A model generated the notes under the pieces. That model ran no database searches. It worked only from the letters and a program-made list of their open reading frames with translations, and was not told the origin of the DNA. Source: Nitrospirota bacterium (lineage in GTDB: Bacteria > JACPQY01). From it: DNA of 64,000 nt. Below, one piece after another: positions 18,421-37,445 of this stretch. Every line of letters begins with the position of its first letter. Position 1 is the stretch's first letter. The stretch is from positions 1 to 64,000 of the forward strand of contig JACPAV010000005.1 of assembly GCA_016180645.1 (NCBI GenBank), written 5' to 3'. The position numbers and the translations under genes were made by a program.

Positions 18421-18437
18421 CATCGCGCGGGTGGCGA

Positions 18438-20489: not shown

Positions 20490-20493
20490 CGCT

Positions 20494-20567: not shown

Positions 20568-20588
20568 TGTGCCTGATGGCTCCCACCG

Positions 20589-20966: not shown

Positions 20967-22785
20967 GGTAAAATACCCAGAGAATGAATCCGATCCCGGT
21001 GAATCCCCATACGCCGTCCCACACCCAGGCCTGAAGGATCGGGGCAAAGAGCCGGTTCGGCGCAAGCCAGGCTCCCAGGATCAATGACCACATGAAAAGA
21101 CCGATCAACCCTTTGACCCATTTCCCATTCAAGAATTGTCCTCCGCCGAGGAGCAAAACGGAAGCCGCCAGCCGGACCCGTGCCGTCCGCGCCCCGTAGC
21201 GCCGGATCTCGGCGTCCTTCTCTTCCCGGCTCCGGCCTTCCACCTCCACCCGCTTTCCGTACAGAAGGTGACATTCAGGACACAGCGCGGCGCCTTCCTG
21301 CGACTCCTTGCACCACCGGCACGCCTCGCATCCGCAGCGCTTACAGGAGAACGAGAGGGACCATCCACCCAGAAACACCGCGGCCAGCAGCGAGATCGCC
21401 GCCGCTCCCGCGAAAGCGATCATGCCCTGAATCGGCGCCAGTCTCGGCGCGAACGACTCCCAAAGCGTCTGGAACCCGGCCACGCCCTGCTGAGATCCCT
21501 CCTCCCAGCCCACACGGAGAATCGTTCGCAAGGGTATCGGCTCATCGACCACGAATCGATTGGGGTTATCCGACGACTTCGCGATCAACCCCTGAACGAA
21601 CTCCCGGTCCAGCCCTCCCGCCGTGGCGATCTCCTGCTCCCCCTCCGCCGGCAGCAGGAGTTTTCGGACGAGTACTTGGGATAGGTTGTAGTGGTAGAGA
21701 GCCGCGGCGGGACTCTCTCCGATGGCGGCGCGATAGTCCGTGACGGCCGCTTTGAAATCGGAGAGGGCCACCCTGGCGCCCGCCAAGTTGTTGAGAACCA
21801 CGGCCTTCAATTCCGGATCGGCGCGATGGGGTTTCAGCACATCCGCCGCCGCCTTGAAATCCCCGCGCCGCTTGAACTCGGCCCCCAGGAGGAGAGCTTC
21901 GGTGGGAGAAAGATTTCCGCTCTTCGAAGTCCACCGCTCCTCGACCCCCCGCACGAAGGCGTGAGATCCGGTTGTGTCCCGCCACGAAGACATTTCGACG
22001 AACCGGGGCGATCCGAGTCCTGCACAGAGGACGGCCGCTCTTTCCCCGGCCCACGGGACTGCCGCCAACAGCACGGCCAAGGCCCCTGCGGCGTATCGCT
22101 CCCGCCGTTGCCCGAGAATTCCGACCAGCAAAAGCGCCGCGAGAACGGCGAATCCAGGACCCCATTGCACGAGGAAGAGAAATCCGCCCCAAAGCAGCAG
22201 CCGTATCGGAAAAGCCGGCAGGGGCACAGGCACGGCCTGGGCGATGAGATGGGCCACCGATTGAATCGGCCGGCGAAGCAGGAGTGTCAAGACGGTGAGG
22301 ATGAACAGCCCGATGGCGGTAGCCGCGAGCATTACCCCATACAGGATCCAACGCGCCACGAAGGTAGCGCTGTTGGAGGCTTGAACCAGGCCCTTGACGA
22401 CCATGAGGAGCGCCGTGACCACGTCGAACGGCTGGTGCCTCAGATGAATCGTGGCGCGGACCAACTCCACGTCCAGAAGCTGAGGAGACATCTTTCCGGC
22501 GTAGTCCAGGTACAACTGAGTCCGTTGCTGGTCGCGCTCCCTCTCCGCCTTCAGTCCCGCCCGGAGAAGGCTCTGGCTGACGGTAAAAAGATTGCGGATC
22601 CCCGAATCCGACTGCCATTGATAGATCTTGTCCAACCCCGCCTGGACTTGCTGGAGGTCCCCCAACTGCATCGCCTCCCGCCCGGCCGCCCAGGCTTCCG
22701 CGACGCGCGTATCGGGCCGGCTGTAGTCCTCCGTGCCCACGGTGCCGACCCACAGGGCCAATCCCAAGAGGTGCGCAAAACTCAT
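20926..22785 (-). CDS. Membrane protein with TPR-like region and zinc ribbon
   Basis: 619 residues. Signal-like N-terminus, several membrane segments (about 140-260), a TPR-like part (about 290-390), another membrane helix near 450, then a cysteine-rich cluster CKRCGCEACRWC...CPECHLLYG that could bind two metal ions, and three more membrane segments to the end. No known family. It sits four bases into the end of the phosphodiesterase gene and overlaps the pilin-like gene, so these are translationally linked. The motif suggests an assembly or quality-control factor, which is inference only. Confidence 0.7.
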   Translation of the reverse strand: MSFAHLLGLALWVGTVGTEDYSRPDTRVAEAWAAGREAMQLGDLQQVQAGLDKIYQWQSDSGIRNLFTVSQSLLRAGLKAERERDQQRTQLYLDYAGKMSPQLLDVELVRATIHLRHQPFDVVTALLMVVKGLVQASNSATFVARWILYGVMLAATAIGLFILTVLTLLLRRPIQSVAHLIAQAVPVPLPAFPIRLLLWGGFLFLVQWGPGFAVLAALLLVGILGQRRERYAAGALAVLLAAVPWAGERAAVLCAGLGSPRFVEMSSWRDTTGSHAFVRGVEERWTSKSGNLSPTEALLLGAEFKRRGDFKAAADVLKPHRADPELKAVVLNNLAGARVALSDFKAAVTDYRAAIGESPAAALYHYNLSQVLVRKLLLPAEGEQEIATAGGLDREFVQGLIAKSSDNPNRFVVDEPIPLRTILRVGWEEGSQQGVAGFQTLWESFAPRLAPIQGMIAFAGAAAISLLAAVFLGGWSLSFSCKRCGCEACRWCKESQEGAALCPECHLLYGKRVEVEGRSREEKDAEIRRYGARTARVRLAASVLLLGGGQFLNGKWVKGLIGLFMWSLILGAWLAPNRLFAPILQAWVWDGVWGFTGIGFILWVFYLAGTIRTGRTALG

Positions 22786-24206
22786 TTGGAAGCTGTTTGC
22801 AGCCGGCTTACGCCGTCCAACTGCTTCTCCACCGGCTCACCGAGCGCCTCCAGAAGAGTCGGGTAGAGATCGGCCGTGCGCATCGGTTCCGGTCTAACCT
22901 TAATGTTAAGAATGAGAGGAGTCATCATATGCTCCCGAATGAACGAGCCATGTGAGGAATGGTGCTCGGGCCATTCATAGCGGTATCGCAGGTCAGATCC
23001 CCTTCGAGCGGAAACGATCACATCACCCGTTCGCGCGGAGGAAAAAATCTGCTCCATTTGCACCAGGCCATCAGGATAGTCGGAATCGACGGTCGCGTGA
23101 AGCGCCTCTTCGTCGTCCCCAAACGCAACCTTTCCGAATTTCAGAGGATCGGCATCGACCGGCGCATACGAGATTCCCGACTTGCTCCTTCGGATTTTCG
23201 CATGGCCATCCCGGTTCAGCACTCGAACTCCCCCGCCCGCTTCTCGCAAGGCCAGAAAGTCCACCTCGTCCCGTCCGCACAGGGCGTTCAGAAATTTCCT
23301 CTGCGCCGGGGTCAGATCGTCGTAGGCGTGCGCCGGACCCCACGAATCACCTCGCCGCAGATAGAGATGGGCCATCGCATTCCCGGAAACCATCACGGCG
23401 CATTCGGCGTTCCGCCAGTGGCGGTAGATCCGGGGATAGGAAAACGTTTTCAGCCCGTGTTCCTCACAAAACGTGGTCAATTCCAAATGCCGGTTCACCG
23501 GCGTCATTCCGTGATCGCTGATGACCCCCAGGATCGACCGATCCAGTCGGCCTGATCGGTTCAATCCTTCGCAGATTCGCCCGATGAACGCATCGAATTG
23601 CCTGTAGACTCGGAGAACGCGTTCATCGACCGAATCGATATGATGGGACAGCTCGTCCACGGCCATGAAGGCCCCGAACACAAACCGTTCCCCCGCGTCC
23701 ACCGCCCGCGCGAATCGCGCCCGGGCCACGGAATCCACCGCCTCCCAGTGCTCCGTGTAGTGCGCATAGGTGAAGAGCAGCGCTTTGGAGAGCCGCCCGC
23801 GCTCATGCCCCACGCCCTTCCGGGACGAGATGGGTGAGAAGACGTTGACGCCGCCGCGCAGACGGTCGAACAGGGTTGTGGTTCCCTCCAGCAGATCCGT
23901 GTTCATGAGAAAACTCTCCCAACCGACATAGCTTCTCACCCTCCGAGAGGACCACGAACGTTCTTCGTACTCCTTCCGGTCCATCCATCGGATCCCCGGA
24001 AGATTGCAGTGACCGGGAAATCTCCCCGTGAGAAACGGCAGATAGGCCGGGCCGGTGGTGGAAGGGAAACAGGTCACCGCCTCGGTAAACGTCCCCGGCT
24101 CCACCAACCATTTCCGGATCTGCGGAAGTTGACCCTCGCTGAGAAGGCGCCGCATGACGTCCGGCCTGGCGCCATCCAGAAGGAAAAGGAAAACGCGCTC
24201 TTTCAG
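22782..24206 (-). CDS. Alkaline-phosphatase-superfamily phosphodiesterase (NPP type), non-ATG start
   Basis: About 475 residues if started at CTG 24206. The first ATG (24155) would cut off VFLFLLDGARPDV, the conserved N-terminal strand carrying the first metal-ligand Asp, so the start must lie upstream; only CTG (24206) or ATT (24215) fit between the stop of apgM and that strand. Further motifs: nucleophile Thr in FPSTTGPAYLPFLTG, metal ligands in ISDHGM and in HHSSHGSF. Such enzymes hydrolyse phosphodiesters or nucleotide pyrophosphates. No signal peptide is seen. Four-base overlap with the next gene. Confidence 0.85.
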   Translation of the reverse strand: MKERVFLFLLDGARPDVMRRLLSEGQLPQIRKWLVEPGTFTEAVTCFPSTTGPAYLPFLTGRFPGHCNLPGIRWMDRKEYEERSWSSRRVRSYVGWESFLMNTDLLEGTTTLFDRLRGGVNVFSPISSRKGVGHERGRLSKALLFTYAHYTEHWEAVDSVARARFARAVDAGERFVFGAFMAVDELSHHIDSVDERVLRVYRQFDAFIGRICEGLNRSGRLDRSILGVISDHGMTPVNRHLELTTFCEEHGLKTFSYPRIYRHWRNAECAVMVSGNAMAHLYLRRGDSWGPAHAYDDLTPAQRKFLNALCGRDEVDFLALREAGGGVRVLNRDGHAKIRRSKSGISYAPVDADPLKFGKVAFGDDEEALHATVDSDYPDGLVQMEQIFSSARTGDVIVSARRGSDLRYRYEWPEHHSSHGSFIREHMMTPLILNIKVRPEPMRTADLYPTLLEALGEPVEKQLDGVSRLQTASK

Positions 24207-24219
24207 AGGGTTAATAGAG

Positions 24220-25455
24220 TTATGCCCCGTACTTCTTGAGCTTCATGGCATGCGCGAGCAGAAGCGGCATGAGACACTTCATCGGGATGATGCCCAGCGA
24301 GCCGCCATTGCAGGAAGTCTCCGAGAACCGGTCCAACCCGTCGCCCCCCCCCCATTTGTTCCAAACCAGGACCGGCACCGGATGCCAACTGTGGCCCTTC
24401 ATGGGGACCGGCGAGGAGTGGTCGCCGGAAATCGCCAACGCATCGAATCCGGCCCCCAGGAGGACCGGCAGCGCCTTGTCCACCTGTTCGATGGCGGCCA
24501 CCTTCTGTTCGAAGTTTCCATCCTCGCCCGCCTGGTCCGTGGCCTTCCAGTGAAAGTAGACGAACGTCTGCCGCCGATCCATCGCCAGAAGGCATTTCTG
24601 CTCTCCCTCCATGCTGGGCGGATCGACTTTCGCGACCGCCATGCCGACCAGCCGCGCCAGACCGCGGTACATGGGATAGGTGGCGATGCAGGTGGGCTCC
24701 AAGCCGAACTTCTCCTTCATCGATGGAATCTCCGGCTTCTTTGAAAATCCCCGCAGGAGCGCTCCGTTGGCTTTGGGCTCTTTCCGCAGAAGTTTCCCCA
24801 CCTCCTCGACGAATCGATTGACCGCCTTCGCAGCCTTCGCCGCCGACTTGGATCGCGCCTGAACCGCCGGGATCGGCTTTCCTTCCTTCTGCGGGTCGGC
24901 ATCCGAGAGATCCGCCGAAAGCCCCTTTCCACGGAACACCACACAAAATCGGTGCGACATCCCCGGCTCGATGATGACGCGGCAGCCGTCGATCTCCGAA
25001 ACGGCCTTCCGGATACGCGCGCACAATTCCTGCGTTTTCTCCGTGGGAATCCGACCCGCCCGGCGATCCGACACTTTGCCCGAGGGATCCACCGTGCAGA
25101 AGTTCCCGCGCGCGGCGACATCCCCCTCCGCCAGCGGCACGTCGAGTCCCACCGCCTCCAACACGCCCCGGCCAATCTGAAACTCGATGGGATCATATCC
25201 GAACAGCGCAAGATGGCCCGGACCGCTCCCGGGCGTGATCCCCGGAAGGACCGGCACGAGACGGCCCAGCGCGCTTTCTTTGGCCAACCGATCCAGCTCC
25301 GGCGTCCGGGCCGCTTCGAGCGGCGTGCGCGGAAGCTCACGGCTCCGCATGTCGCCCAGCCCATCCATCACGATGAGAAGAATTCGGCTCTCCGTTACTT
25401 GGACGAGATCGCCCAGGATGGCGGAGTAGTCCGCGGAGAACGGGTCGGCCATCAC
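24220..25455 (-). CDS. apgM: Cofactor-independent phosphoglycerate mutase, ApgM type
   Basis: 411 residues. Metal-binding start LLIVMDGLGDM, nucleophile region GITPGSGPGHLALFGYDP, C-terminal metal ligands in ISGDHSSPVPMKGHSWHPVP. This is the archaeal-type iPGM that interconverts 3- and 2-phosphoglycerate in glycolysis. The real start may be about 20 codons inside (near SRILLIVMDG). It lies in the proA-nadD-rsfS-lapB neighbourhood. Confidence 0.93.
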   Translation of the reverse strand: MMADPFSADYSAILGDLVQVTESRILLIVMDGLGDMRSRELPRTPLEAARTPELDRLAKESALGRLVPVLPGITPGSGPGHLALFGYDPIEFQIGRGVLEAVGLDVPLAEGDVAARGNFCTVDPSGKVSDRRAGRIPTEKTQELCARIRKAVSEIDGCRVIIEPGMSHRFCVVFRGKGLSADLSDADPQKEGKPIPAVQARSKSAAKAAKAVNRFVEEVGKLLRKEPKANGALLRGFSKKPEIPSMKEKFGLEPTCIATYPMYRGLARLVGMAVAKVDPPSMEGEQKCLLAMDRRQTFVYFHWKATDQAGEDGNFEQKVAAIEQVDKALPVLLGAGFDALAISGDHSSPVPMKGHSWHPVPVLVWNKWGGGDGLDRFSETSCNGGSLGIIPMKCLMPLLLAHAMKLKKYGA

Positions 25456-25458
25456 GTT

Positions 25459-25473
25459 GGACGTGACACGTCC
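25459..25473. other. Short hairpin in the lapB-apgM gap
   Basis: GGACGT-GAC-ACGTCC, a perfect 6-bp stem with a three-base loop and no T-tract. Possible attenuator or processing site. Confidence 0.2.
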
Positions 25474-25512
25474 GCGGTCAGCATTCAGCGCCGCATGCCC
25501 CGGTGGCGCCGC

Positions 25513-26811
25513 CTACGCCAGGCTCAGGCGCAGGCCGTTGATGGTGCCGCACGAAGGACAGGCGTCTTGATACCCGGCGGGCGCCGGGCGCTTGCAGGTC
25601 TCGCAGGTGTAGGAAAGAACAAGCTGGTTTTCGGGTCCCAGGCTCTTGCGATACTCCACGCACGCCTTCTCGAAATTCTGCCGGCGATAGTGGGCTTCGC
25701 CGGAGAGCAGGTGTGCATCCAACGGCGTGTTCTGTCCGCTCTCCTCCAGTTCATGAAGCTGGTCGAGCGATTCGTCGATCAACCCAAGACGCAGGAGCAG
25801 GTTCGAGTAGAGCATCCGCACCGTCAGGGAGTCCGCGTGCTCAGCCACGGCTTTCCGGTACAGGCGGATCATCCGATTCGGTTCATGCCGCCCGATCCAA
25901 AGGTCTTCGATCGCGGGCAGGTAGAGCGGAGCGCCGGAGCGCGCGTAGCATTTTTCCAGATGCTCGGCGGCATCCTCCCCACGGTCCTGCTTTTGAAGGA
26001 TGGTCGACCACAGAAGGTGAGCCGGAACAAAATCCGAGTGGTCCGAGAACTCGCTCTTGAGGACGCGCAAGGCGCCGTCCGAGTCCCCCGCGGAATCGAG
26101 CGATTTGGCGCGCAGGAACGCCGTCTCCTTTTGCAGGGTATCCAATTCCGCCGGATTGCCCCCCATCTTGATGGCCTTCTCCACCGTTTCCAGCGCGTCC
26201 TCCCACCGTTCGGAGTTTCGATAGCACCGGGCGAGAAGCGTCCACCATTCGTGCCGGCGACCGTCCTGGCTGATGATCCGCCTTAACTCCTCCGCGGCGC
26301 TTAGATGTTCCCCGTTCTGCATCAGCACCTGGGCCAGCTTGAAGGCATAGTCGAGATTTTTCGGCTCGCGCGCCACCAGCGCCGCTATTCTCTTCTTCGC
26401 GCCGGCCGTGTCTCCGAGTTTGAGAAAGGCCTCCACCTCCGCCACCCGCGCGGGGGCATAGTCGGGAAAAACGTCCAGCGACTGCGCAAACTGCTCCCGG
26501 GCCACGGCCACGTCGCCCATGAGGAGACGCATCATGCCCTTCCGGTAGAACTCGTCGGCCACGGCCTTCTTCCGATCCGTCTTGCGGGCCGACCATCGCC
26601 GCATCGCCCTTCGACCGCGGTTGATCGAAGAGGTGACGCCGGCCAGGATCGCTCCTCCCAAGGCCGCCAGAAAAACCAGAACGCCCAGCGGCATGGCCGT
26701 TCCCTCCACGCCCTGCCGCAAAACGACGACGATCTCGTCCTTAAACCAGTCGTTCAGCCAGTAGAGATAGGCGGAGCCTCCGAGCAGGAGAACGAGAAAG
26801 ACAAACCACAT
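25513..26811 (-). CDS. lapB: LapB/YciM-like TPR protein with C-terminal rubredoxin-type metal site
   Basis: 432 residues. Two N-terminal hydrophobic segments (residues 1-17 and 37-60), a TPR array (about 90-390) and a C-terminal CETC...CPSCG knuckle. In E. coli LapB has this layout and controls LPS synthesis through LpxC proteolysis. The domain order supports the assignment, but two membrane segments differ from E. coli LapB with one, so the exact role is inferred. Confidence 0.8.
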   Translation of the reverse strand: MWFVFLVLLLGGSAYLYWLNDWFKDEIVVVLRQGVEGTAMPLGVLVFLAALGGAILAGVTSSINRGRRAMRRWSARKTDRKKAVADEFYRKGMMRLLMGDVAVAREQFAQSLDVFPDYAPARVAEVEAFLKLGDTAGAKKRIAALVAREPKNLDYAFKLAQVLMQNGEHLSAAEELRRIISQDGRRHEWWTLLARCYRNSERWEDALETVEKAIKMGGNPAELDTLQKETAFLRAKSLDSAGDSDGALRVLKSEFSDHSDFVPAHLLWSTILQKQDRGEDAAEHLEKCYARSGAPLYLPAIEDLWIGRHEPNRMIRLYRKAVAEHADSLTVRMLYSNLLLRLGLIDESLDQLHELEESGQNTPLDAHLLSGEAHYRRQNFEKACVEYRKSLGPENQLVLSYTCETCKRPAPAGYQDACPSCGTINGLRLSLA

Positions 26812-26839
26812 GGCCGATGAAAAGAAAGGGGCTCGCTCG

Positions 26840-27307
26840 CTAGGATCGGGAGTCTAACGGAGCGACCGGGATGGGGCCCGACGATTGTTGTTTCATGGTC
26901 AATCGCGGCGCATTATACCACAGCCCTTCAATATCATAGTACTCTCGCACCGATCCGTGAAAGAGGTGAACCACCACGTCCGACCAATCGATCAGCGCCC
27001 ACTGCGTCGATCGAAGGCCCTCGCATCCGAGCGGGCGGACGCCTTCCTCCCGAAGTCGCTGCAACAGCCCCTCGGCCATGGCGGAAATGTGCCGGTCGGA
27101 AGACCCGCTCGCCACCACAATGTAGTCCGTATAGGAGCAGAGGGCACGCACGTCCAGGACGACGATATTCTGGGCCTGTTTCTCCTCCAGGCAATCCACG
27201 CAGCGCCGGAGAAGGGCATCCGGAGTGAGGTGGCCGTTTCGGATCCCGGTCTTGGGAGATCCAAGATGGGAAGCGGCCTCGGCCGTGCCCGCGTGCGGGT
27301 GGGTCAA
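26840..27307 (-). CDS. rsfS: Ribosome silencing factor RsfS
   Basis: About 155 residues with TTG at 27307, eight bases past the end of nadD. Core motifs YTDYIVVASGSSDRH and WALIDWSDVVVHLFH...REYYDIEGLW are typical. Binds ribosomal protein L14 and blocks subunit joining in starvation. The open frame extends back into nadD, but the TTG is well placed after GGGG. Confidence 0.92.
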   Translation of the reverse strand: MTHPHAGTAEAASHLGSPKTGIRNGHLTPDALLRRCVDCLEEKQAQNIVVLDVRALCSYTDYIVVASGSSDRHISAMAEGLLQRLREEGVRPLGCEGLRSTQWALIDWSDVVVHLFHGSVREYYDIEGLWYNAPRLTMKQQSSGPIPVAPLDSRS

Positions 27308-27314
27308 CCCCGAA

Positions 27315-27965
27315 CTAGCGATAAAGACGATGCTCCTGAATGTAGCGTTCGACGGCGGGGGGAGTGAGAAACCGGATCGATCGGCCTTCCTTGACCGCTT
27401 GACGCACCGCGCTGGCCGAAACATCGAAAGGCGTCACTCTGACCAGCGCAAGCGTCTTGTTCGCCTTGTTCCTGTACACGCCTTTCGCAGCATCATACCC
27501 GTAGAGGCGCCGAACTTCAAGCGGGATCCACGATGCCCCCTTCCGCTCTTTCCGGCCGGGACGCTCCATGACCACGATATCGCAGTCGTCGAGGACCTCG
27601 CGGAATCTTTTCCACGTCCCGATTTCAGCGAAGCTGTCCACTCCGAGAATGAGGAACAGCCGTGCGCCGACACGCGAGGCCTGGAGCTGCCTCAACGTCT
27701 CGACGGTGAACGAAGGGCCTCCGCGCCTTCCTTCGATGTCCGACACCTGGATAACGGCGTTTCGACCCAAAGCCAGCCGAAGCATGGACAGCCTGTGATT
27801 GAATGGAGCCGGGTGGCGATCCGACTTGTGGGGAGGCCGGCGATTGGGAATGATGAACACCTTGTCGAACCGCATCCGGTCCTGGACCTCCTGGATCGAG
27901 CGGAGGTGGCCGAAGTGAACGGGATCGAAGGTGCCGCCGAAGACGGCGATCCGAAGGGGCTTCAA
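27315..27965 (-). CDS. nadD: Nicotinate-nucleotide adenylyltransferase
   Basis: About 216 residues from TTG at 27965, overlap-free 7 bases after proA. Motifs GGTFDPVHFGHL, PNRRPPHK and the SASAVR substrate loop are those of NadD, which makes deamido-NAD from nicotinate mononucleotide. No ATG exists near the conserved N-terminus. Confidence 0.94.
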   Translation of the reverse strand: MKPLRIAVFGGTFDPVHFGHLRSIQEVQDRMRFDKVFIIPNRRPPHKSDRHPAPFNHRLSMLRLALGRNAVIQVSDIEGRRGGPSFTVETLRQLQASRVGARLFLILGVDSFAEIGTWKRFREVLDDCDIVVMERPGRKERKGASWIPLEVRRLYGYDAAKGVYRNKANKTLALVRVTPFDVSASAVRQAVKEGRSIRFLTPPAVERYIQEHRLYR

Positions 27966-27972
27966 GCTTCGC

Positions 27973-29235
27973 CTACGTGCGGATCTGGCCGTTCCCGTAG
28001 ACCACGAACTTCTGCGTGGTGAGACCCTGGAGCCCCATGGGGCCGTAGGCATGGATCTTGGACGTGCTGATCCCCACCTCCGCCCCCAGGCCGAGTTCGT
28101 ACCCGTCGCTGAATCGCGTGGAAGCGTTCACCACCACGGTGGAGGACTCCACCTCCCGGACGAACCGTTCGGCGCGCGCGTAGTCTCTCGTCACGATGCT
28201 CTCCGTGTGGAGCGATCCGTACTTCCGGATGTGCGCCATCGCTTCGTCCAGTCCGTCCACCACCCGCACGGCGAGAATCAGGCCGAGGTATTCCTCATAC
28301 CAGTCGGCCTCCACGGCGGCCTTCGCCGCCGGCAGGATCGCCTGCGTCCTCGGGCATCCTCGAATCTCCACGCCCTGCGCCGCCAGTGCCGCACCCGCAT
28401 CTCTCAGAAAGGGCACAGCGACTTCCTCATGCACCAACAGCGTTTCCATTGCATTGCATACGGCGGGGCGCTGGACTTTGGCATTCAGGCAGATCTCACG
28501 CGCCATCGCGAGATCTGCGAATTCATCCACGTAGACATGGCAAACGCCCTTGTAGTGCTTCACCACCGGAATCCGCGACTTCTCCGCCACGCTCCGGATG
28601 AGCGCCTCGCCGCCGCGCGGTACAATCAAATCGATGTACTGCTCGAGCTTCAGCAATTCGTCCACGAACGCGTGGTCCGTCTCCCCCACCAGCTGAATTC
28701 CATTCTCAGGAAGATCCACTCGCCGAAGTTCCTCCCTCATCAACTCCGCGATGAAACGGTTTGAACGGAGGGCCTCCGAGCCGCCCCGCAGCACGACGGC
28801 GTTTCCGGACTTCACGCACAGCCCGGCGGCATCCGACGTTACGTTCGGCCGTGCCTCGTAAATAATCCCGACCACCCCCAGGGGGATGCGCATCCGTCCC
28901 ACGCGCAGACCGTTCGGCCTCACCCACATGCCGGAAATCTCGCCGACCGGATCCGGGAGGGCCGCAATCTCACGAAGACTGGCCGCCATCCCCATGACCC
29001 GTCTGGGGTCCAGCGTCAGCCGGTCCACCAGGGCCGCTGCCGTCCCCGCGCGGCGGGCCGCGGAAACGTCGTCGCCATTGGCTTGCAAGAGCGCATCCTG
29101 GGAGCCGCCCAAACGATCGGCAACCGCCGTCAAGAAACGATTCTTCACGCTCACCCCCGCACGGGCCATGCCCGCGGCCGCCTCCCGCGCCTTCGAACCG
29201 ATTTCCCTCGCCAATATGGAAAAATCCCGCGCCAT
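27973..29235 (-). CDS. proA: Gamma-glutamyl phosphate reductase
   Basis: 420 residues from ATG at 29235 (MARDFSILAREIGSKAREAA), the usual length. Aldehyde-dehydrogenase fold; catalytic Cys in VQRPAVCNAMETLLVHE. Second step of proline synthesis. First gene of a long minus-strand block (proA to the SRPBCC gene) and divergent from the DUF4175 gene. Confidence 0.96.
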   Translation of the reverse strand: MARDFSILAREIGSKAREAAAGMARAGVSVKNRFLTAVADRLGGSQDALLQANGDDVSAARRAGTAAALVDRLTLDPRRVMGMAASLREIAALPDPVGEISGMWVRPNGLRVGRMRIPLGVVGIIYEARPNVTSDAAGLCVKSGNAVVLRGGSEALRSNRFIAELMREELRRVDLPENGIQLVGETDHAFVDELLKLEQYIDLIVPRGGEALIRSVAEKSRIPVVKHYKGVCHVYVDEFADLAMAREICLNAKVQRPAVCNAMETLLVHEEVAVPFLRDAGAALAAQGVEIRGCPRTQAILPAAKAAVEADWYEEYLGLILAVRVVDGLDEAMAHIRKYGSLHTESIVTRDYARAERFVREVESSTVVVNASTRFSDGYELGLGAEVGISTSKIHAYGPMGLQGLTTQKFVVYGNGQIRT

Positions 29236-29251
29236 CCGGCGATGGTAACAG

Positions 29252-32200
29252 ATGCCCGGATTGAAGAAAACCGGACCCCGGAGTAAAGTCATTTCCGTGG
29301 GTGATCGATCGGGATTGTTGGACCGAGTTCTTCGCCGAGCTTTGGTCAAACTTGTGTCGCTTGGATTGCGACAGGGAGCGGCAGCACTCCCGCTCGCGCT
29401 GATCCTCCCCTTTTACCTTTGCGCCGTTCTTTCCGAATTCGACGTTGCCCTTCTCCCCCCACCGCCCCTACCGGGGGTCGCCATCCTCGGGGCGGCCTTA
29501 ATGGTATTCCTCCTCGCCGGAATGCCGCGTGTCCTGCCGCGTCTCCCCCGTCTCCGCAGGCTCGCATGGCTGGAGAACGCCTCGGGGCTGCCCTACCAGC
29601 CGCTACGCACCCTGGCACACCTGCGTGTCCCCACAAAGGGAGCCGACGGCGACCCCTTCCGCCACGCCGCCGTTCAGTTCGCCGAGGCTCAGACCTCCAG
29701 GATGGATCTGTCTCGCGTTGTCGAAACGGATCGCCGTGTTTCCCGCCGCCTTTTCCAGGCGTCCCTCGCCGCCACGCTTCTGGCATCCGCCGCCGCCGTT
29801 CTCTCGCCGGAGCGCCACGTGGAGTGGCTGGCGCTCATGCTGCCCGCACGGATCGCCCAGATGCTGCCCTATGCCTCGGTGAAACACTTGGCCCTGCAAC
29901 GCGTCGCCGTCCGGGTCCATCCCCCGGCGTACGCCGCCTGGCCTCCCGAAGAGAAGGTCCTCGGCGTCCCGGAACTCCAAGTGCTGAAAGGGAGCAGGGT
30001 CGAATTGACCGCTTCCACCCGGGAGCATCTGCGCACCGCCTCTCTTTCCTCCAGCGCAGGGACCAACCTGCCGGCACAGGTTTCCGGTTCGGATGTCTTC
30101 GCCTCCTTCGATGTCCTGGCCGAACAAAGTCTTCGCATCGAGGGCCTGGGACTCAAGGGTGAAAAATGGGTCAGCCCCTCCGCCGCAAATCTCAAGCTGA
30201 TTGAGGACCGGCGCCCGCACGTCGCCTTGCTTCAACCGCCGGCTGACATGACGGCGGAGGAGACCGGAAGGATCCCCATCCAGTACTCGGCGGATGACGA
30301 TTTCGGTCTGCGGCGTTTCGAGCTGGTGCTCTTCCGCGGGAAGGAGGAATCGCCCATGCCTCTCGAACGGTTGGAAGGCGAACCCTCAAGCGCGTCCGGC
30401 ACCTACATCCTCGAACTCATACAGCTCCAGCCGAAGCCGGGAGAGCTGATCGGCATCGGCGTGCGCGCGTGGGACAACGACACGGTCTCCGGCCCCAAGT
30501 TCGGGACGTCCGACATTCGCTTCCTTGAGATTCTCAGCGGCGATCACGAGCACCGGGCGAAACTGGAGAAGCTGAAGGCCGTCTGGGAAAGCCTGATCCA
30601 GACCTTGGGACTCGAACTGCCCACCACCGTGGCCGGAATGGACGGCCCCGGCCGGCTCACCGCCCACCAAACCATCGATGCGAGACTCCGCGAGACGTCG
30701 CAGTACCTCGGCGACGTCCTGGGCGGGATCGCGGACGACGAACGCATGTCCGCCGATTGGATCCAGATCCTGGCGGTCATGAAACAGGACATCGAGACGG
30801 TCAATCGCGAGAAGGCGCTCTTCCTGGCCCAAAATCCGGAGATTCTGGGTGTTCCGTCTTCCCCCCGCCGCTCCGCCGAGGATGAAATGAAACCCGGTGA
30901 GGGCGAAACGCCCGACCTCTCGCCCCCGCCGCTGTTCGTCCAGAAAGTTCAGCCCGAAGTACAGGAGTTGGAGGAAGATGTCCTCTTGCTCGACCGGTTC
31001 TTCGACATGCAGGCCCTCACCGACGCCTACACCGGTTTCAACGACGCCCTCCACCAGCAGGAAACGCTGACCGATCTTTTGAAGCAAGCCAACCTGCGGG
31101 ATCCGAAGGCCTCGGCCGCCTTGGAGCGCAAGCTTCAGGAGCTGGAACGGACGCTGGCGTCGCTGTACGAGAAGCTCATGAAAACCGCCAGGCAGATTCC
31201 CGACGAACTGCTGAATCCGGAGGCGATGCAGTCGCTAAAAACCGCGCAACTGGGGGATCTGATGGCCCAGATTCGCGAAGCTCTTCGAAGCGGCGACTCC
31301 GAAAAAGCCCAAAAACTGCTGGCTCAACTGCGGGACGAATTGCAGAAACTGATGACGACGGTGGATTCCGCCCAGAAGGGCGCGCAGCGAATGGATGAGG
31401 CGCAGTACGAAAAAGCCAAATCCATGTACCAGTCCCTTGAGCAGCTTGAGAAAGACCAGTCCCAGTTGCGCCAGGAAACGTTCGAGCAGTCCAAGGCAGG
31501 TCAATCGGGCGACGCGCGGGATGCCAAGGTCTGGATTCGACAGGCCCTCGAACAGATCCAGCGGCATCTCCAGAGCGCGGAGCAGTCTCTCTCCGGCATG
31601 GAATCGGCCCACGGCGCAACGGATTGGACCGGTCGGATGCGAATGAGTCTCGAAAACGCCCTCGCCCTCCGGGCCCAACTCGCCGAGCAGCTCGATCGGG
31701 TTGCCCCGCGCGAACTCCTCCCTCCCGCGCGAAGCCTCGAGATGGCCCTCCAGGGCGCGGATCAGCTCACGCGTTGGCCGCCGGCCGAAATTCAGAAGGC
31801 GGATCCGCCCCGGAAACTGGCGTCCGACGTCCGCGACGCGGAGCATGTTGCCAAGGAGCTGGTTCAATTCCTTCAGGCGCCGCCCGAAACCGCCCCGTCG
31901 CCAAGGGTTTCATCCGGACGCGAGCCACAGGGCGAACAAGGGGCGCCCAGCGGGCGATCGAACGGGCCGGGGTTGACCGAGCGTCAAGGACGCCTGGCCC
32001 AGAGCACCGGCGATCTCTCCAAGAAGCTTGAGGAGCTCTCCGGCTCCGTCCCCTTCGTGGGCAAGAATCCTTCCTCGAAGCTGGGACAGGCCGCGGAGGA
32101 TATGAAGTCCGCCCAACAGGCTCTTGGACGAAACGGCTATTCGGACGCGCTGACGCCGCAGGACCAAGCCATCCAGAAAATTCGCGAAGCCAAGGGGAAC

Positions 32201-32461
32201 CTTCAGCAAGCCCTCAACGGGATGAGCTCGGGCGCGCCCGGCATGTCCATGCCGTTCCCCTCGGCATGGCCGTGGGGTTCCCGACCTTCACATCAGGAAG
32301 GCAAGTACGGCGCTCCCACCCAGAAGGTTCAGATCCCCACCTCCGACCAGCACAAGGTCCCCAAGGAATTCCGCGAGGATCTCCTGGAGGCGATGAAGGA
32401 AAAATATCCCGACAAGTACGAAAAACCCGTCAAGAAATACTACGAAGAACTCCTGAAATAG
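29252..32461 (+). CDS. Large DUF4175-type membrane-anchored coiled-coil protein
   Basis: 1069 residues from ATG 29252; a GTG at 29297 with a nearby GGAG is an alternative that would leave space for a promoter between the divergent genes. Two or three membrane segments in the first 190 residues, a beta-rich region (about 200-430), long charged coiled coils (about 440-900) and a Gly/Pro-rich tail. DUF4175 proteins in Bacteroidetes and Deltaproteobacteria often sit near MoxR/Bat genes; none are adjacent here. Function unknown; probably an inner-membrane scaffold. Confidence 0.75.
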   Translation: MPGLKKTGPRSKVISVGDRSGLLDRVLRRALVKLVSLGLRQGAAALPLALILPFYLCAVLSEFDVALLPPPPLPGVAILGAALMVFLLAGMPRVLPRLPRLRRLAWLENASGLPYQPLRTLAHLRVPTKGADGDPFRHAAVQFAEAQTSRMDLSRVVETDRRVSRRLFQASLAATLLASAAAVLSPERHVEWLALMLPARIAQMLPYASVKHLALQRVAVRVHPPAYAAWPPEEKVLGVPELQVLKGSRVELTASTREHLRTASLSSSAGTNLPAQVSGSDVFASFDVLAEQSLRIEGLGLKGEKWVSPSAANLKLIEDRRPHVALLQPPADMTAEETGRIPIQYSADDDFGLRRFELVLFRGKEESPMPLERLEGEPSSASGTYILELIQLQPKPGELIGIGVRAWDNDTVSGPKFGTSDIRFLEILSGDHEHRAKLEKLKAVWESLIQTLGLELPTTVAGMDGPGRLTAHQTIDARLRETSQYLGDVLGGIADDERMSADWIQILAVMKQDIETVNREKALFLAQNPEILGVPSSPRRSAEDEMKPGEGETPDLSPPPLFVQKVQPEVQELEEDVLLLDRFFDMQALTDAYTGFNDALHQQETLTDLLKQANLRDPKASAALERKLQELERTLASLYEKLMKTARQIPDELLNPEAMQSLKTAQLGDLMAQIREALRSGDSEKAQKLLAQLRDELQKLMTTVDSAQKGAQRMDEAQYEKAKSMYQSLEQLEKDQSQLRQETFEQSKAGQSGDARDAKVWIRQALEQIQRHLQSAEQSLSGMESAHGATDWTGRMRMSLENALALRAQLAEQLDRVAPRELLPPARSLEMALQGADQLTRWPPAEIQKADPPRKLASDVRDAEHVAKELVQFLQAPPETAPSPRVSSGREPQGEQGAPSGRSNGPGLTERQGRLAQSTGDLSKKLEELSGSVPFVGKNPSSKLGQAAEDMKSAQQALGRNGYSDALTPQDQAIQKIREAKGNLQQALNGMSSGAPGMSMPFPSAWPWGSRPSHQEGKYGAPTQKVQIPTSDQHKVPKEFREDLLEAMKEKYPDKYEKPVKKYYEELLK

Positions 32462-32678
32462 CCCCTGCGTGTCAGCGCGAAATCCCAGTTCCCGGAAGCC
32501 GCAGCATCGCGGAGTAGGAATGGGGTCGGTCGTCATGGCCAAATGGCCACCTGCGAACGATGAAAATGCCTCCCTCTGTAGCCGAGGTGACCGAATCGGT
32601 CCTTCCGGCCCCGTACCCGGAGCGCCATGGATGGCTGCGCAGGCGTGACCGCTGAACGCTTATTTCTACTTAGAGCCT
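32462..32678. other. Intergenic, no gene seen
   Basis: No convincing ORF. It holds a possible diverged heptamer pair (GACCGCTGAACGCT near 32648) and leads into the composite repeat at 32679. Confidence 0.5.
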
Positions 32679-32767
32679 CTAACAGAATGCCGATTCGTAG
32701 GGGAGCATCTTCAGATGCTCCCTCTTGTCGGGAGGGTCTGAAGACCCTCCCCTACGCATTCTGTTAG
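32679..32767. mobile_element. Composite MITE-like element: terminal inverted repeats around a REP pair
   Basis: Terminal CTAACAGAATGC and its complement GCATTCTGTTAG (12 of 12) enclose a REP pair running from GTAG (32697) to CTAC (32755). REP stems are GGGAGCATCT/AGATGCTCCC and GGGAGGGTCT/AGACCCTCCC. The flanks show CCT on both sides, a possible 3-bp target duplication. The stop codon of the Kelch gene (TAA, minus strand) lies inside the right terminal repeat. Confidence 0.6.
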
Positions 32768-34896
32768 CCTTGCCCCTGCCCTTCTCCTTGATCGTGCGGA
32801 ACCGTGACCGTGGCCGTGGCGGTAGTGGAGTTTCCGGAGCTGTCCGTCGCTTGATACGTCAGCGTGTAGATTCTCCCCGTGCCGGTTCCGGAGCGTTCGG
32901 CGCGAAGCTGGAGGCCGCCCGCTGTCTGGATGTCGTTCTCCGTGTCGCCGTCGCCCAGACCGTTGTCCGGCTCATTACTCGTCGCAGAGCCGAGGACCAC
33001 GGCGGGGCTTGCGTCGCAAACGTCGGACACGCTGAAGGCGGCCGTAATCGGAACCATCTTGTGATTCGGCGGCCAGAGCGAACTGGGCGAGACCGAAACT
33101 GAGAGCGTCGGCGCCGTCGTATCCGAGACCGTCACCAGCACGTCATCCGTATCCGAGAGCCCGTCGCTGTCTGTGACTTTCAGCGTAATCGCATGGCTTC
33201 CGAGCGACATCGTTGCGCTCGCCGTTTCGCCCGTCGCGACAAGCGTCGTCCCCTCGAACCATTCGAACGTCACAATATCGTCGTTCGTGCCGGGCGAGGA
33301 ATCGGGATCACTCGAAGCCGAACCATCGAGAGCGATCAACGCCCCGCCGGACGACACACACTCGGCTAAGATGTCTGCCCCTGCACTCGCTGTGGGCGGC
33401 TGATTTGAAGGAGGGACGAAACCTTCGTCAAACAGTTCAGCGCTTGCGAGGAGAGGGTACGAACTTCCGTAATAGCCGCCGGCGACAAGAACTTTCCCCG
33501 TCAAGAGCAAAACCGCGGGGTGACTGAATCGTCTGAATGTCATCGATCCGGCCATAGTCCACGCGCCCGCGGCCGGGTCATAGATCTCCGAAGAAGCCAG
33601 AATGCTCCCTCCCTCCGATCGACCACCAGCGACAAGGACCCTACCTGAGGTCAGCAGCGTAGCACTGAGCCATTGCCGGCCAAAACTCATCGATCCAGTG
33701 CTCGTCCAAACACCGGTCGAGGGGTCATAAACCTCGGCAGATCGCTCAACATAAGGACTAAGACCGCCCGCCGCCAACACCCTTCCCGATGGCAGGAGAG
33801 TCAATGTAAAGTCGACCCTGGGGTTTAGCATAGCGCCTGTGGGCAGCCATGACATTGTAGTGGGGTCCAGCAGTTCGGAGGATGAGTCGTACCACGCGGT
33901 GACGCCGCCGGCAATCAGAACCTGCCCCGATGCCAGCAGCACGGCTGAGTGCGACCGCCGAGGTTTGGTCAGGTGAGCCACTTGAGTCCAAGTTCCGGTG
34001 GAACGCTCATACACTTCCACTGAGTCTGTCGTGCCAAAAGGATTCAGTCCCCCAGCCACCACGACCTTACCCGATGCGAGCAGAGTTGCGGAATGATCCT
34101 GTCTGGCCACTTGCAAATTCCCCGTTCGAGACCACACGCTCGTAACAGGATCATACAGCTCCGTAGCCATCAGGGGATAGTGGCCCCCGGCCATGACAAG
34201 CACCTCACCTGTAGGTAGCAGCACAGCGCCATGCAAATACCTCCCGAACGACATACTTGCGGTTGAAGACCAGCTTTCAGATGGTGGATCATACAATTCA
34301 GCCGACCTAAACGCCGCGTTCACCCCGTCGTGACCACCCGCCACCAGGACTTTGCCGCTTGGCAGCAATGTGGCGGAATGAAGGATGCGTGGCACAGCCA
34401 TCGAGCCCGTGGACGACCAGCCGGGGTCGATGACGATGGGGGGCGTGAGGCCGCCCAAATCCACGTGGGTCGCGATCCTCAGCGAGTCACCCAGAATCAG
34501 ACGCCGGCCTTTTTCGTCCGCTTCGCCCACGCCCTTCAATGCCACCTTGCCGTTCCTCGCCTCTCCCAGCGAGTCCATGGCCACGGAATAATGGAAACGA
34601 ACCACCGGAACGCCACGGACATCGAAGAATTCCAGGTAACTCCCCGCATCATGCACGGTCACGATTCCGGCAGGCAACGTCACCGCGTACTCTGAAGACG
34701 CCTCCGTGTCAGCAGTCGGAACGATCTCGAACTCTTCGAGACGGCTCGTATCGGCCTTCAAGTTCTTCATGCGTAGGGGAGCATCTTCAGATGCTCCCAG
34801 TTCGGGAGGGTCTAAAGACCCTCCCCTACGATTTGGTACTTCAGATGCTCCCAAGACGGGCTTCATGCGTAGGGGAGCATCTTTAGATGCTCCCAA
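32764..34896 (-). CDS. Kelch-repeat protein with PKD/HYR-like C-terminus; 5' end formed by REP DNA
   Basis: Up to 710 residues. Seven Kelch repeats (LHSATLLPSGKVLVAGG pattern, about residues 165-470) should form one propeller, followed by a PKD-like domain (about 485-575) and another Ig/HYR-like domain to the end. The first 42 residues (for example GASEDAPLRM) are translation of REP repeats; the ATG at 34770 (MKNLKADTS) is an alternative. No signal peptide is present although such proteins are normally exported, so the gene is probably truncated at its 5' end. Likely a degraded surface protein. Confidence 0.75.
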   Translation of the reverse strand: MGASKDAPLRMKPVLGASEVPNRRGGSLDPPELGASEDAPLRMKNLKADTSRLEEFEIVPTADTEASSEYAVTLPAGIVTVHDAGSYLEFFDVRGVPVVRFHYSVAMDSLGEARNGKVALKGVGEADEKGRRLILGDSLRIATHVDLGGLTPPIVIDPGWSSTGSMAVPRILHSATLLPSGKVLVAGGHDGVNAAFRSAELYDPPSESWSSTASMSFGRYLHGAVLLPTGEVLVMAGGHYPLMATELYDPVTSVWSRTGNLQVARQDHSATLLASGKVVVAGGLNPFGTTDSVEVYERSTGTWTQVAHLTKPRRSHSAVLLASGQVLIAGGVTAWYDSSSELLDPTTMSWLPTGAMLNPRVDFTLTLLPSGRVLAAGGLSPYVERSAEVYDPSTGVWTSTGSMSFGRQWLSATLLTSGRVLVAGGRSEGGSILASSEIYDPAAGAWTMAGSMTFRRFSHPAVLLLTGKVLVAGGYYGSSYPLLASAELFDEGFVPPSNQPPTASAGADILAECVSSGGALIALDGSASSDPDSSPGTNDDIVTFEWFEGTTLVATGETASATMSLGSHAITLKVTDSDGLSDTDDVLVTVSDTTAPTLSVSVSPSSLWPPNHKMVPITAAFSVSDVCDASPAVVLGSATSNEPDNGLGDGDTENDIQTAGGLQLRAERSGTGTGRIYTLTYQATDSSGNSTTATATVTVPHDQGEGQGQG

Positions 34897-35023
34897 GACG
34901 GGCGGATCTGAAGATCCGCCCCTACGAATTGCTCCCTCTTTCGGGAGGGTCTAAAGACCCTCCCCTACGATTCGGCGCCAAGAATCGGCGCCAATCCGGG
35001 AGGGTTTGAACACCGTCCCCTAC
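34773..35023. repeat. REP cluster downstream of the RAYT gene
   Basis: Two complete pairs (34773-34829, 34869-34925), one half element (34839-34868), one single hairpin (34943-34968) and one decayed copy (about 34997-35023). Pairs read GTAGGGG-hairpin-spacer-hairpin-CCCCTAC. Stems vary (GGGAGCATCT, GGGCGGATCT, GGGAGGGTCT) but each pairs with its own complement. GGCGCC-containing spacers recur. Confidence 0.9.
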
Positions 35024-35490
35024 ATGGTCTTCCAATCGGCCCAAACGAACGAACCGGAATGTGGGAACCGGCGGTAGTCGGATACGAGACCGCGACGGAC
35101 CGGGTTCTCCCAAATGTACCTCGCAACTTTCTCAATGCTCTCTTCCAATCGAAGCGCATGGTCGTAGAACGACCGCTGCCAGAGCGGTGCAGGCACGCCG
35201 ACTTTCCGGCCCTCATGAGTCGTCAGGATCTTGAACATGCGGACAAACTCGACCACGTCGCCACCTGCCGGACATCGCAGCAGGAGATGCAAATGGTCCG
35301 GCATGAAACAATAGGCAAACACCTCGGCGCACAGCGAATCAGCCGCGCGCCGGAGCAAGGGCACAAACACATCCACCAACTCCGCTCGCTCAAGATGCTT
35401 GGCGCGATCCGCGGTGCACAGCGTCAAAGAAAACGCGTGACCTTGGCGGTAAGCCGCCCGATCAAGCCGTATCCGTCTGCGCTCCCCCAT
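35020..35490 (-). CDS. REP-associated tyrosine transposase (RAYT, IS200-like Y1 HUH)
   Basis: 156 residues, apparently complete. HUH motif in FMPDHLHLLL (metal-binding His pair), then WQRSFYDHALR and the C-terminal ARYIWENPVRRGLV with the catalytic tyrosine candidate, all typical of the TnpA_REP group. RAYTs are single-copy domesticated IS200 relatives that cut and join single-stranded REP hairpins with a GTAG foot. The gene is flanked on both sides by such hairpins, whose feet match that rule. No intact IS boundary is seen. Confidence 0.9.
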   Translation of the reverse strand: MGERRRIRLDRAAYRQGHAFSLTLCTADRAKHLERAELVDVFVPLLRRAADSLCAEVFAYCFMPDHLHLLLRCPAGGDVVEFVRMFKILTTHEGRKVGVPAPLWQRSFYDHALRLEESIEKVARYIWENPVRRGLVSDYRRFPHSGSFVWADWKTM

Positions 35491-35517
35491 GGAGTCAGTC
35501 TACCGCAGATTGATCTC

Positions 35518-35902
35518 GTAGGGGAGCATCTTTAGATGCTCCCAAGACGGGCGGATCTAAAGATCCGCCCCTACGAATTGCTCCCTCTTTCGGGAGGGTC
35601 TAAAGATCCGCCCCTACGATTCGGCGCCGAGAATCGGCGCTGATCCGGGAGGATGTAAACACCCTCCCCTACAAATAAACCAACATCGCCAACGCTCCTC
35701 GTAGGGGAGCATCTTTAGATGCTCCCAAGAGGGGCGGATCTAAAGATCCGCCCCTACGATTTGCTACCCTCCCGTGTTCGGGCTCCTCGTAGGGGAGCAT
35801 CTTCAGATGCTCCCTCTTGCATGCTCCCTCTTTCGGGAGGGTCTAAAGACCCTCCCCTACGATTCGGCGCCAAGAGGGGCGGATTTGAAGATCCGCCCCT
35901 AC
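35518..35902. repeat. REP cluster upstream of the RAYT gene
   Basis: Two complete pairs (35518-35574, 35701-35757), a pair with an internal partial duplication (35789-35860), a chimera whose two arms come from different stem types (35592-35617), a decayed copy (35647-35672) and a single hairpin (35876-35902). Together with 34773-35023 it brackets the RAYT gene. Confidence 0.9.
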
Positions 35903-36099
35903 GGACTGATAGCAAGGCCAAATGGGAAACCGGTTACACGCTGTGAACCCAAGGTTACAGTCGCCGTCCTCCCCTCTTGCTTGACACTCCATGTACTATT
36001 AACCACTTGCCACTTACCGTCCTGTGGTACGGGGCTTGCTCTTTGCTCCACCAGATGAAACTTTCAGCACGAGCAACATACCACGAAGGAGGTGCGCCT
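35903..36099. other. Intergenic upstream of the prepilin genes
   Basis: No gene. Contains a weak heptamer-like stretch (CACTTGC, CACTTAC near 36004-36017). The ribosome binding site GGAGG at about 36088 serves the first prepilin. No clear promoter found. Confidence 0.4.
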
Positions 36100-36759
36100 A
36101 TGAGCCGCACAACCCCCAACAGAACTTTCATTTCATCCGATCCTGCGTCACGCGTCACGCGTCAAGCGTCACGGGCGCGAAGCCGCGCCGGTTTCACTCT
36201 GATCGAGCTGATCATGATCATTATCTTGATCGCGATTCTCGCTTCGATCGCGGTGCCCCGCTTCGTGAACCTCTCGCGGCAGGCCGACATCGCCGCCACG
36301 CGCGGCGCCTTGGGCGCCATCCGAGCCGCCATGGTGATGGACTATGCCAGCCGAACCTTGGTGTCCAGGGGCATCCCCAGATTCGCCAACGTGGTCTATC
36401 ACAGTTGGTTCATGGAGCTGCACGTACCGACGAATGAACTCACCAATACCAGCCTGCTTGCCAACGCCGGCTGGGGCGCTGAAGACGCCGCCATCACTGG
36501 TCAAACCGACCAGATCTCCATCGTCGAAAACATGGACTCCACCAACGCGCCCAGCGTCGCCAATCTCAATGCCCGAGGCACCGCCTCCGCCGCTTCCGTT
36601 CTCTGCTGCTCGGCGACCTGGACCTGCCCCGCCACCAACAACCCAGGCACCATCGCCTGGGTCTACGAAAGCTACGGGGAGTTCGAGGGCGTCGTGAAGG
36701 CGTGCGGCGACAATTCGGCCGCCACCGGATACACCGACGACCAAACGGATGCGTGGTAA
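36100..36759 (+). CDS. Type IV prepilin-like protein, paralogue 1
   Basis: 219 residues from ATG 36100, with AAGGAGG at good distance. Long basic leader (about 30 residues), then cleavage/methylation motif AGFTLIELIMIIILIAILA and PRFVNLSRQADIAATRGALG, the usual prepilin helix. The globular part has a CC...C cysteine group (VLCCSATWTC) and ends TDDQTDAW. Nearly identical in length and sequence to the next gene, so a tandem duplication. A heptamer repeat tract (36145-36172) lies inside the leader. No pilus assembly genes are nearby. Confidence 0.9.
   Translation: MSRTTPNRTFISSDPASRVTRQASRARSRAGFTLIELIMIIILIAILASIAVPRFVNLSRQADIAATRGALGAIRAAMVMDYASRTLVSRGIPRFANVVYHSWFMELHVPTNELTNTSLLANAGWGAEDAAITGQTDQISIVENMDSTNAPSVANLNARGTASAASVLCCSATWTCPATNNPGTIAWVYESYGEFEGVVKACGDNSAATGYTDDQTDAW
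36145..36172 (+). repeat. Heptanucleotide tract inside prepilin 1 leader
   Basis: GCGTCAC, GCGTCAC, GCGTCAA, GCGTCAC in tandem within the coding sequence, between the start codon and the GFTLIEL motif. One unit more or less shifts the frame. Confidence 0.85.
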
Positions 36760-36785
36760 ACCAGGCGGAAACGGGAGGAATGCCC

Positions 36786-37445
36786 ATGAAACACTCAGCA
36801 CCCAGCACTCAGCACTCCGCGCTCATGAGCGGGTCACGAGTCACGAGTCACGAGTCACGGCGGCGAAGCCGCTCGGGTTTTACACTCGTTGAACTGGTGC
36901 TCGTGGTCATCCTGATCGCGATTCTCGCCTCGATTGCCGTTCCCCGATTCGTGAACCTGGCGCGGCAGGCCGACATCGCCGCCACCCGCGGCGCCCTCGG
37001 CGCCGTCCGAGGCGCGATCGTAATGGACTATGCCAGCCGCACGCTGGTCAGCCGGGGCGTCCCCAGATTCGCCAACGTGGTCTACCACAGTTGGTTCATG
37101 GAGTTGCACGTGCCCGTGAACGAGCTCACCAATACCAGCTTGCTTGCCAATGCCGGCTGGGGCGCCGAAGACGCGGCCATCACAGGCCAAGTCGATCAGA
37201 TCTCCATCGCCGAAAACATGGACTCCACCAACGCGCCCACCGTCGCCAATCTCAATGCCAGGGCCACCGCCTCCGCCGCCTCCGTCCTCTGCTGCTCGGT
37301 GGCTTGGACGTGCCCCGCCACCAACAACCCGGGCACCATTGCCTGGGTCTACGAAAGCTACGGCGACTTCGAGGGCATCGTGAAGGCATGTGGGGACAAC
37401 AACGGAAGCACCGGATTCACCGACGACCTGACGGACGCGTGGTAG
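36786..37445 (+). CDS. Type IV prepilin-like protein, paralogue 2
   Basis: 219 residues from ATG 36786, seven bases after GGAGG; the nearer ATG at 36780 is too close to it. Motif SGFTLVELVLVVILIAILA, then the same body as paralogue 1 with scattered changes. The leader is again long and basic, and is built from two different heptamer tracts. Probably co-transcribed with paralogue 1 (26 bases apart). Both may be minor or alternative pilins or pseudopilins. Confidence 0.9.
   Translation: MKHSAPSTQHSALMSGSRVTSHESRRRSRSGFTLVELVLVVILIAILASIAVPRFVNLARQADIAATRGALGAVRGAIVMDYASRTLVSRGVPRFANVVYHSWFMELHVPVNELTNTSLLANAGWGAEDAAITGQVDQISIAENMDSTNAPTVANLNARATASAASVLCCSVAWTCPATNNPGTIAWVYESYGDFEGIVKACGDNNGSTGFTDDLTDAW
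36792..36858 (+). repeat. Two heptanucleotide tracts inside prepilin 2 leader
   Basis: Tract one, 36792-36819: CACTCAG, CACCCAG, CACTCAG, CACTCCG. Tract two, 36831-36858: GGGTCAC, GAGTCAC three times. Both are translated in the leader before GFTLVEL. Confidence 0.85.

Follow-up and report, generated by a model that had tools for sequence, protein, structure and literature searches.

The 64,000-nucleotide stretch analysed here (the window; bases 1-64000 of contig C5, JACPAV010000005.1) belongs to a Nitrospirota draft genome of 4.7 Mb in 65 contigs that is 97% complete. At 34773-35902 it carries a gene for a REP-associated tyrosine transposase (RAYT), enclosed by repetitive extragenic palindromes (REPs), short hairpins that follow a GTAG tetranucleotide. 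This arrangement probably represents a REPtron, consisting of a RAYT gene of the HUH/Y1 single-strand type and its cognate GTAG REPs, in which the stems covary and inverted neighbours are constrained to differ. REPtrons are known from other bacteria, and among them the present system is group-3-like by its perfect palindromes and its T-rich (TTYA) loop. Neighbouring REPs in inverted orientation never share a stem sequence in this genome, whereas neighbours in direct orientation commonly do.

The RAYT gene and its REP family

The RAYT gene (35020-35490, minus strand) encodes 156 amino acids, and the complete gene that an earlier, sequence-only reading of this DNA had claimed is confirmed by profile and structure matches. 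Its open reading frame (ORF) matches Pfam PF01797 (Y1_Tnp) above the cut-off with an E value of 5e-10, scores 100.5 bits against the NCBIfam model NF047646 'REP-associated tyrosine transposase' (cut-off 80), and finds TnpA_REP (4er8) as its top match in the PDB. The HUH motif (PDHLHLL) and the one catalytic tyrosine, located in YIWENPVRRGLV, lie in regions that are both kept in an alignment with eight homologs. Together with inverted GTAG-tagged palindromes on both sides in opposite orientation, these features place the gene among the RAYTs (TnpA_REP). It does not fall into IS200/IS605, as NF033573 yields 26.8 bits against an IS200 family cut-off of 55.

The hairpin clusters predicted to flank the gene are present, and they comprise 15 GTAG-tagged hairpins, not about ten: 12 with at most one deviation, two degenerate copies and one chimera. 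GTAG accompanies every tagged hairpin as an unpaired tag on one side; the constant GTAG/CTAC foot described previously arises because the hairpins are paired head to head. The three stem versions, A (GGGAGCATCT), B (GGGAGGGTCT) and C (GGGCGGATCT), each with its exact complement, were found as described. Within the cluster they are sorted by orientation, with every A-type hairpin on the plus strand and every B- and C-type hairpin on the minus strand.

The genome search that the sequence-only reading had proposed, with hairpins confined to this locus as the outcome that would count against it, revealed a dispersed REP family: the pattern GTAGGGGN4TCTNNAGAN4CCC has 263 exact matches genome-wide, compared to 0 for the reversed control. 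The detailed hairpin analysis covers half of the genome (2.37 Mb) and relies on a simple script in which GTAG is obligatory. In this half, hairpins follow 313 of 10184 GTAGs, whereas five control tetranucleotides precede a hairpin at 15-32 of 15503-32701 occurrences, and GAGG, the highest control tried, at 108 of 31658. The majority of REPs are arranged head to head in pairs. The dispersed unit seen most often is composed of A, a 7-nt spacer (mostly TCTTGTC) and B, with 105 copies at up to 3 mismatches. As short GTAG palindromes that exceed about 100 copies and lie largely outside genes, these elements constitute a GTAG REP family. Further stem versions are D (GGGCGGGTCT), A2 (GGGAGCAGCT) and B2 (GGGAGGACCT), and a second REP family (F3) has CGCAGGC/CGCGGGC stems. 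In the draft, contigs C3, C4, C9, C11, C13, C15, C17, C19 and C46 have REP pairs at or near their start, and the number of REP copies is therefore probably underestimated.

Structurally, the stems are perfect palindromes of 10 bp that lack the bulge conserved in group 2, as in group 3 REPtrons. Across 38 distinct hairpins, 97.9% of cells are paired and seven of the ten pairs show two-sided changes; the covariation score reaches 0.481, whereas shuffles give 0.160 (sd 0.019) and slid partners no more than 0.084. Of 154 typed copies in the analysed half of the genome, 153 have the same stem type in the left and the right arm. This agreement and the very strong covariation bear out the proposal that compensatory change preserves the fold.

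The sole exception is a chimera at 35592-35617, correctly recognised in the sequence-only reading as joining the arms of two versions with broken pairing. It combines a C arm with a B arm and keeps 8 of 10 pairs, with a folding energy of -2.9 kcal/mol compared to about -10 kcal/mol for intact hairpins. The chimera adjoins a C hairpin and occupies, in the second copy of a repeated module described below, the position held by a B hairpin in the first copy. Given this position, one short local conversion with the adjoining C-type hairpin or two substitutions suffice to explain it. Active recombination between copies had also been proposed; as a single case in 154 typed hairpins, the chimera was rejected as a sign of ongoing recombination or current activity.

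The RAYT terminates within a REP. Its TAG stop codon (35020-35022) is at the same time the TAG of the GTAG in a degenerate REP at 34998-35023. This overlap with the downstream GTAG recurs in 8 of 24 REP-bearing RAYTs from several lineages (the window, 35018-35023, and loci L036, L100, L103, L104, L238, L244 and L245), including the second RAYT of this genome, and in 0 of 14 RAYTs that have no GTAG hairpins nearby. Five of the eight were scored by script; the window, L036 and L238 were scored by eye because the adjoining hairpins are imperfect. REPs immediately 3' of RAYT stop codons have been noted earlier (Nunvar 2010, PMC2817692). In E. coli, REPs at most 15 nt from a stop codon are reported to reduce translation (cited in PMC12306157), which makes self-limitation of the RAYT a testable idea.

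Stem identity in inverted and direct neighbours

When comparing REPs located within 60 nt of each other, we found the same stem in 0 of 102 inverted neighbours (84 head-to-head and 18 tail-to-tail) and in 17 of 24 direct neighbours (Fisher 7e-16; the copies are related, so the p values overstate independence). Counting each stem combination once lessens the effect of copied dimers without removing it, and still yields identical stems in 0 of 28 inverted and 5 of 11 direct combinations (p 8e-4). The effect depends on distance: once the REPs lie more than 2 kb apart, inverted pairs with the same stem are just as frequent as other pairs. An exact search of the whole genome returned 97 A-B inverted matches and no short head-to-head A-A or B-B pair of two complete REPs; the 5 A-A and 11 B-B sites that it returned consist of incomplete hairpins or of direct neighbours read over their joints.

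The missing class could be an artefact, in which one unlike founder pair was copied and identical pairs were lost during short-read assembly. The fragmentation of the draft, with several contigs beginning or ending at REP pairs, and the clear spread of dimers as units speak for such an origin. It is nevertheless unlikely, given that all 28 distinct inverted combinations are unlike while nearly half of the direct ones are identical, and that palindromes shorter than 60 nt are normally assembled. Furthermore, loci of other genomes share the stem in 0 of 29 inverted and 4 of 13 direct neighbours, and a single-contig genome among them (L101, from G102) follows the same trend.

DNA folding was predicted for several configurations. 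Hypothetical identical inverted pairs collapse into one hairpin that is about 13 kcal/mol deeper than two individual hairpins and leaves GTAG only 5% unpaired. The RAYT-side A/C pair is predicted to form two hairpins with GTAG open at 83%, and A2/B2 reaches 92%. A borderline case is the common A/B pair (-21.1 vs -19.2 kcal/mol), with GTAG 13% open. Unlike stems therefore always abolish the perfect long palindrome, but a clear release of GTAG is predicted for only some of the pairs.

Nuclease clearance of palindromes was considered as well. SbcD is the usual palindrome nuclease; its model has no match in this 97% complete draft at E 0.001, although 13 of 14 control genomes yield one. A preference of REP dimers for unlike partners was described by Di Nocera 2013 (PMC3733652) with 'no obvious explanation', and protection from SbcCD was suggested. 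The lack of an SbcD match weakens this suggestion, to the extent that an incomplete draft allows.

Organisation of the window cluster and dispersed cassettes

The cluster begins on the side of the RAYT stop codon with an A REP (loop TC, 34773-34798, plus strand) and a B REP (loop TT, 34804-34829, minus). These are followed by A (TT, 34869-34894, plus), C (TC, 34900-34925, minus), B (TT, 34943-34968, minus) and the degenerate REP that overlaps the stop codon (34998-35023, minus, 8 of 10 pairs). Upstream of the RAYT, an A REP (TT, 35518-35543, plus) and a C REP (TT, 35549-35574, minus) precede the chimera (35592-35617, minus), which has a C-type 5' arm and a B-type 3' arm and has lost pairing at 2 of 10 positions, and a second degenerate REP (35647-35672, minus, 9 of 10 pairs). 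The outermost part contains A (TT, 35701-35726, plus), C (TT, 35732-35757, minus), A (TC, 35789-35814, plus), B (TT, 35835-35860, minus) and a C stem with one deviation (GGGCGGATCT / AAATCCGCCC, 35877-35902, minus).

Two copies of a 157-nt module, 94% identical and both on the plus strand, are located one on each side of the gene. Copy 1 (34868-35024) contains four REPs, namely A, C, B and a degenerate one, and its end lies on the RAYT stop codon; copy 2 (35517-35673) lies just upstream of the RAYT and contains the chimera. With module copies on both sides, the RAYT lies within a small bacterial interspersed mosaic element (BIME), one module of which ends on its stop codon. No similar DNA was found in plasmids, and no exact A-type REP in viral contigs. 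The open frame of a neighbouring Kelch-repeat protein gene (32764-34896, minus strand) extends into the REP cluster, and the REPs may have changed its 5' end. Beyond the cluster, two adjacent near-duplicate genes with N-terminal methylation (pilin-like) motifs (35977-36759 and 36702-37445, plus strand) probably result from tandem duplication.

A dispersed cassette is also present in the window (32678-32768, plus strand), formed by an outer arm, an A REP (32697-32722, plus), a B REP (32730-32755, minus) and a second outer arm. In many dispersed A/B pairs, the outer arms read CTNAGAGCCTCTRACAGAATGC-CGATTC on the A side and GCATTCTGTTAGACGCNCTNAG or the longer GCATNATGACCAACATAAACCTTTCAAAAAATGGCAAAAGTCGAGCTNAG on the B side. 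In the window cassette and many of the 46 A/B copies in the 2.37 Mb, they take the form TCTRACAGAATGC / GCATTCTGTTAGA, bounded by CTNAG. The left arm is found in 33 of the 46 copies and the right arm in 24, and the arms are complementary over at least 13 nt.

Such arms could be terminal repeats moved by a DDE transposase, so that the dispersed REP pairs would be cargo of a miniature inverted-repeat transposable element (MITE) and the RAYT would account for the local cluster only. We regard this as improbable. The arms do resemble the terminal inverted repeats of a DDE-type MITE in many copies, and the RAYT-side REPs are devoid of them; about half of the A/B pairs, however, lack one or both arms. 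Target-site duplication at the cassettes was not detected above permutation (3 of 21 matches, permutation mean 2.1, p 0.34; 2 of 5, p 0.33). Among the 83 genome-wide arm matches listed at up to 1 mismatch in this draft, those examined revealed no autonomous element with the same arms, and the further arms read out always enclose REPs, two to four of them, and no gene. The flanks of other REP families show no general inverted complementarity above control. Cassette L263 contains an A/C pair and the linker CCTCCCGTGTTCGGGCTCCTC, which is also present at 35768-35788, and this shared arrangement ties the cassettes to the RAYT cluster.

Relatives, known systems and a proposed mechanism

The comparison set consisted of 116 genomes, of which only one is of the same family (G001, 84% complete) and those listed besides it are relatives at domain level, which indicates that the lineage is sparsely sampled. 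The TTY-core form of the pattern was found in 3 of 116 genomes, with 261 copies here, 12 in G001 and 1 in G010. In the 84% complete G001, where no RAYT more than 37% identical to the window RAYT was found, the hairpins thus number only 12; equal abundance in relatives lacking the RAYT, which the sequence-only reading had named as adverse to it, was not seen. The 37% identical RAYT of G001 has the other REP family on its flanks. The lone G010 copy, one partner of an unlike pair, is positioned directly 3' of the RAYT of that genome (43% identical).

Elsewhere, at loci chosen by similarity to RAYTs, RAYTs with 31-49% identity carry GTAG hairpins with different stems, including those of a Desulfobacterales and a Stahlbacteria metagenome-assembled genome. 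The second RAYT of the present genome (C5:105746-106186; L036 1432-1905) is 38% identical to the window RAYT and 57% to that of G001. It is flanked by CGCAGGC/CGCGGGC hairpins, a REP family of its own, likewise arranged as unlike pairs. Since the flanking stems differ from RAYT to RAYT, each of these RAYTs has its own REP family. The five longer Y1 genes of this genome have no convincing adjoining REPs of this pattern. In G001, the outer arms around an A/D REP pair (C63:107241-107299, L097/L098) are different ones (CCTATCCGA / TCGGATAGG), so a REP pair may persist from genome to genome while its outer arms are replaced.

Several stem versions beside one RAYT had been considered unusual, which previous reports contradict: E. 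coli REPs y, z1 and z2 have been listed (PMC8266576, Corneloup 2021), modified REPs with complementary changes described (PMC2817692, Nunvar 2010), and stem heterodimers reported as common (PMC3733652, Di Nocera 2013). The E. coli y/z1/z2 BIMEs resemble the present system in having one RAYT, the group 2 TnpA_REP, with several REP versions and unlike REPs combined in BIMEs, but the E. coli stem is bulged and the stems here are perfect. GTAG heterodimers (PMC3733652) and modified REPs in Stenotrophomonas BIMEs (PMC2817692) share inverted unlike GTAG REPs, complementary stem changes and REPs at the RAYT stop codon. In those systems unlike partners are a preference in many families and homodimers exist, whereas here the search turned up no identical inverted pair, and direct neighbours serve as an internal control. 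Also similar are the REPINs of Pseudomonas fluorescens (Bertels and Rainey 2011, PMC3116915; PMC8049555), RAYT-associated inverted REP doublets dispersed as units; the present doublets, by comparison, join two different REPs, usually across a spacer of only 5-7 nt, and many copies have conserved outer arms.

The closest similarity is to the group 3 REPtrons of Stenotrophomonas (Sm) and Marinomonas (Mb) (PMC8266576), in which a RAYT is accompanied by perfect-palindrome REPs directly after GTAG, with a TTNA-type loop in Mb. They differ in stem length (10 bp here, 8 in Sm, 5 in Mb) and in the unlike partners 5-7 nt apart found here. For group 3 RAYTs, GTAG and positions T12, T13 and A15 of the TTTA loop matter, and cleavage occurs at CT. 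In the Marinomonas system T12, T13 and A15 are required and position 14 is free, which fits the TTYA loop observed here.

We postulate the following sequence of events. REPs would fold individually on exposed single-stranded DNA, and the RAYT would recognise the unpaired GTAG and a hairpin with a TTYA loop while reading the mid-stem loosely. It may then cut beside the hairpin and carry REP pairs to other sites, most of them intergenic. Stem sequences could drift as long as both arms match, giving rise to covarying versions. Identical facing stems would form one long hairpin in which GTAG is hidden, and such a hairpin would also be an unstable palindrome, so inverted neighbours would have to differ, and the need for unlike partners would favour at least two stem versions being kept together. 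A more specific form of this proposal is that stem diversity acts as a folding code: inverted REPs would differ so that each folds alone with GTAG free, and this need, not SbcCD clearance, would hold several covarying versions together. The RAYT would then read only GTAG and the TTYA loop and almost ignore the mid-stem. We put this forward tentatively, as possible but doubtful.

Some observations weigh against the REPtron interpretation or its proposed mechanism. The RAYT-side REPs, with TT loops, the C stem and a 5-nt spacer, are unlike the dispersed A/B pairs; many dispersed pairs lie within outer arms that are absent from the RAYT-side copies; G001 retains 12 such REPs without a close RAYT; and the commonest pair, A/B, is predicted to bury GTAG for most of the time, so access to GTAG is not the whole reason for unlike stems. 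A host role in RNA or DNA (terminators, mRNA 3'-end stabilisers or translation brakes), with covariation arising from that function and not from the RAYT, is very unlikely: although only 4 of 31 REP pairs lie in ORF interiors by a crude ORF rule, compared to 76% sequence coverage, and the overlap with the RAYT stop codon recalls the E. coli effect on translation, an Rfam search of 32600-36000 gave no match, the conserved unpaired GTAG and TTYA loop are unnecessary for a terminator, and high copy number in one of 116 genomes only is unlike a general host function.

The value of the REPtron described here lies in its orientation-specific stem rule, which gives a simple reason why one RAYT would carry several stem versions. 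With no identical inverted pair found, common identical direct pairs, a similar picture at loci of other genomes and SbcD undetected, the question of why REPs take unlike partners becomes testable with oligonucleotides and purified RAYT.

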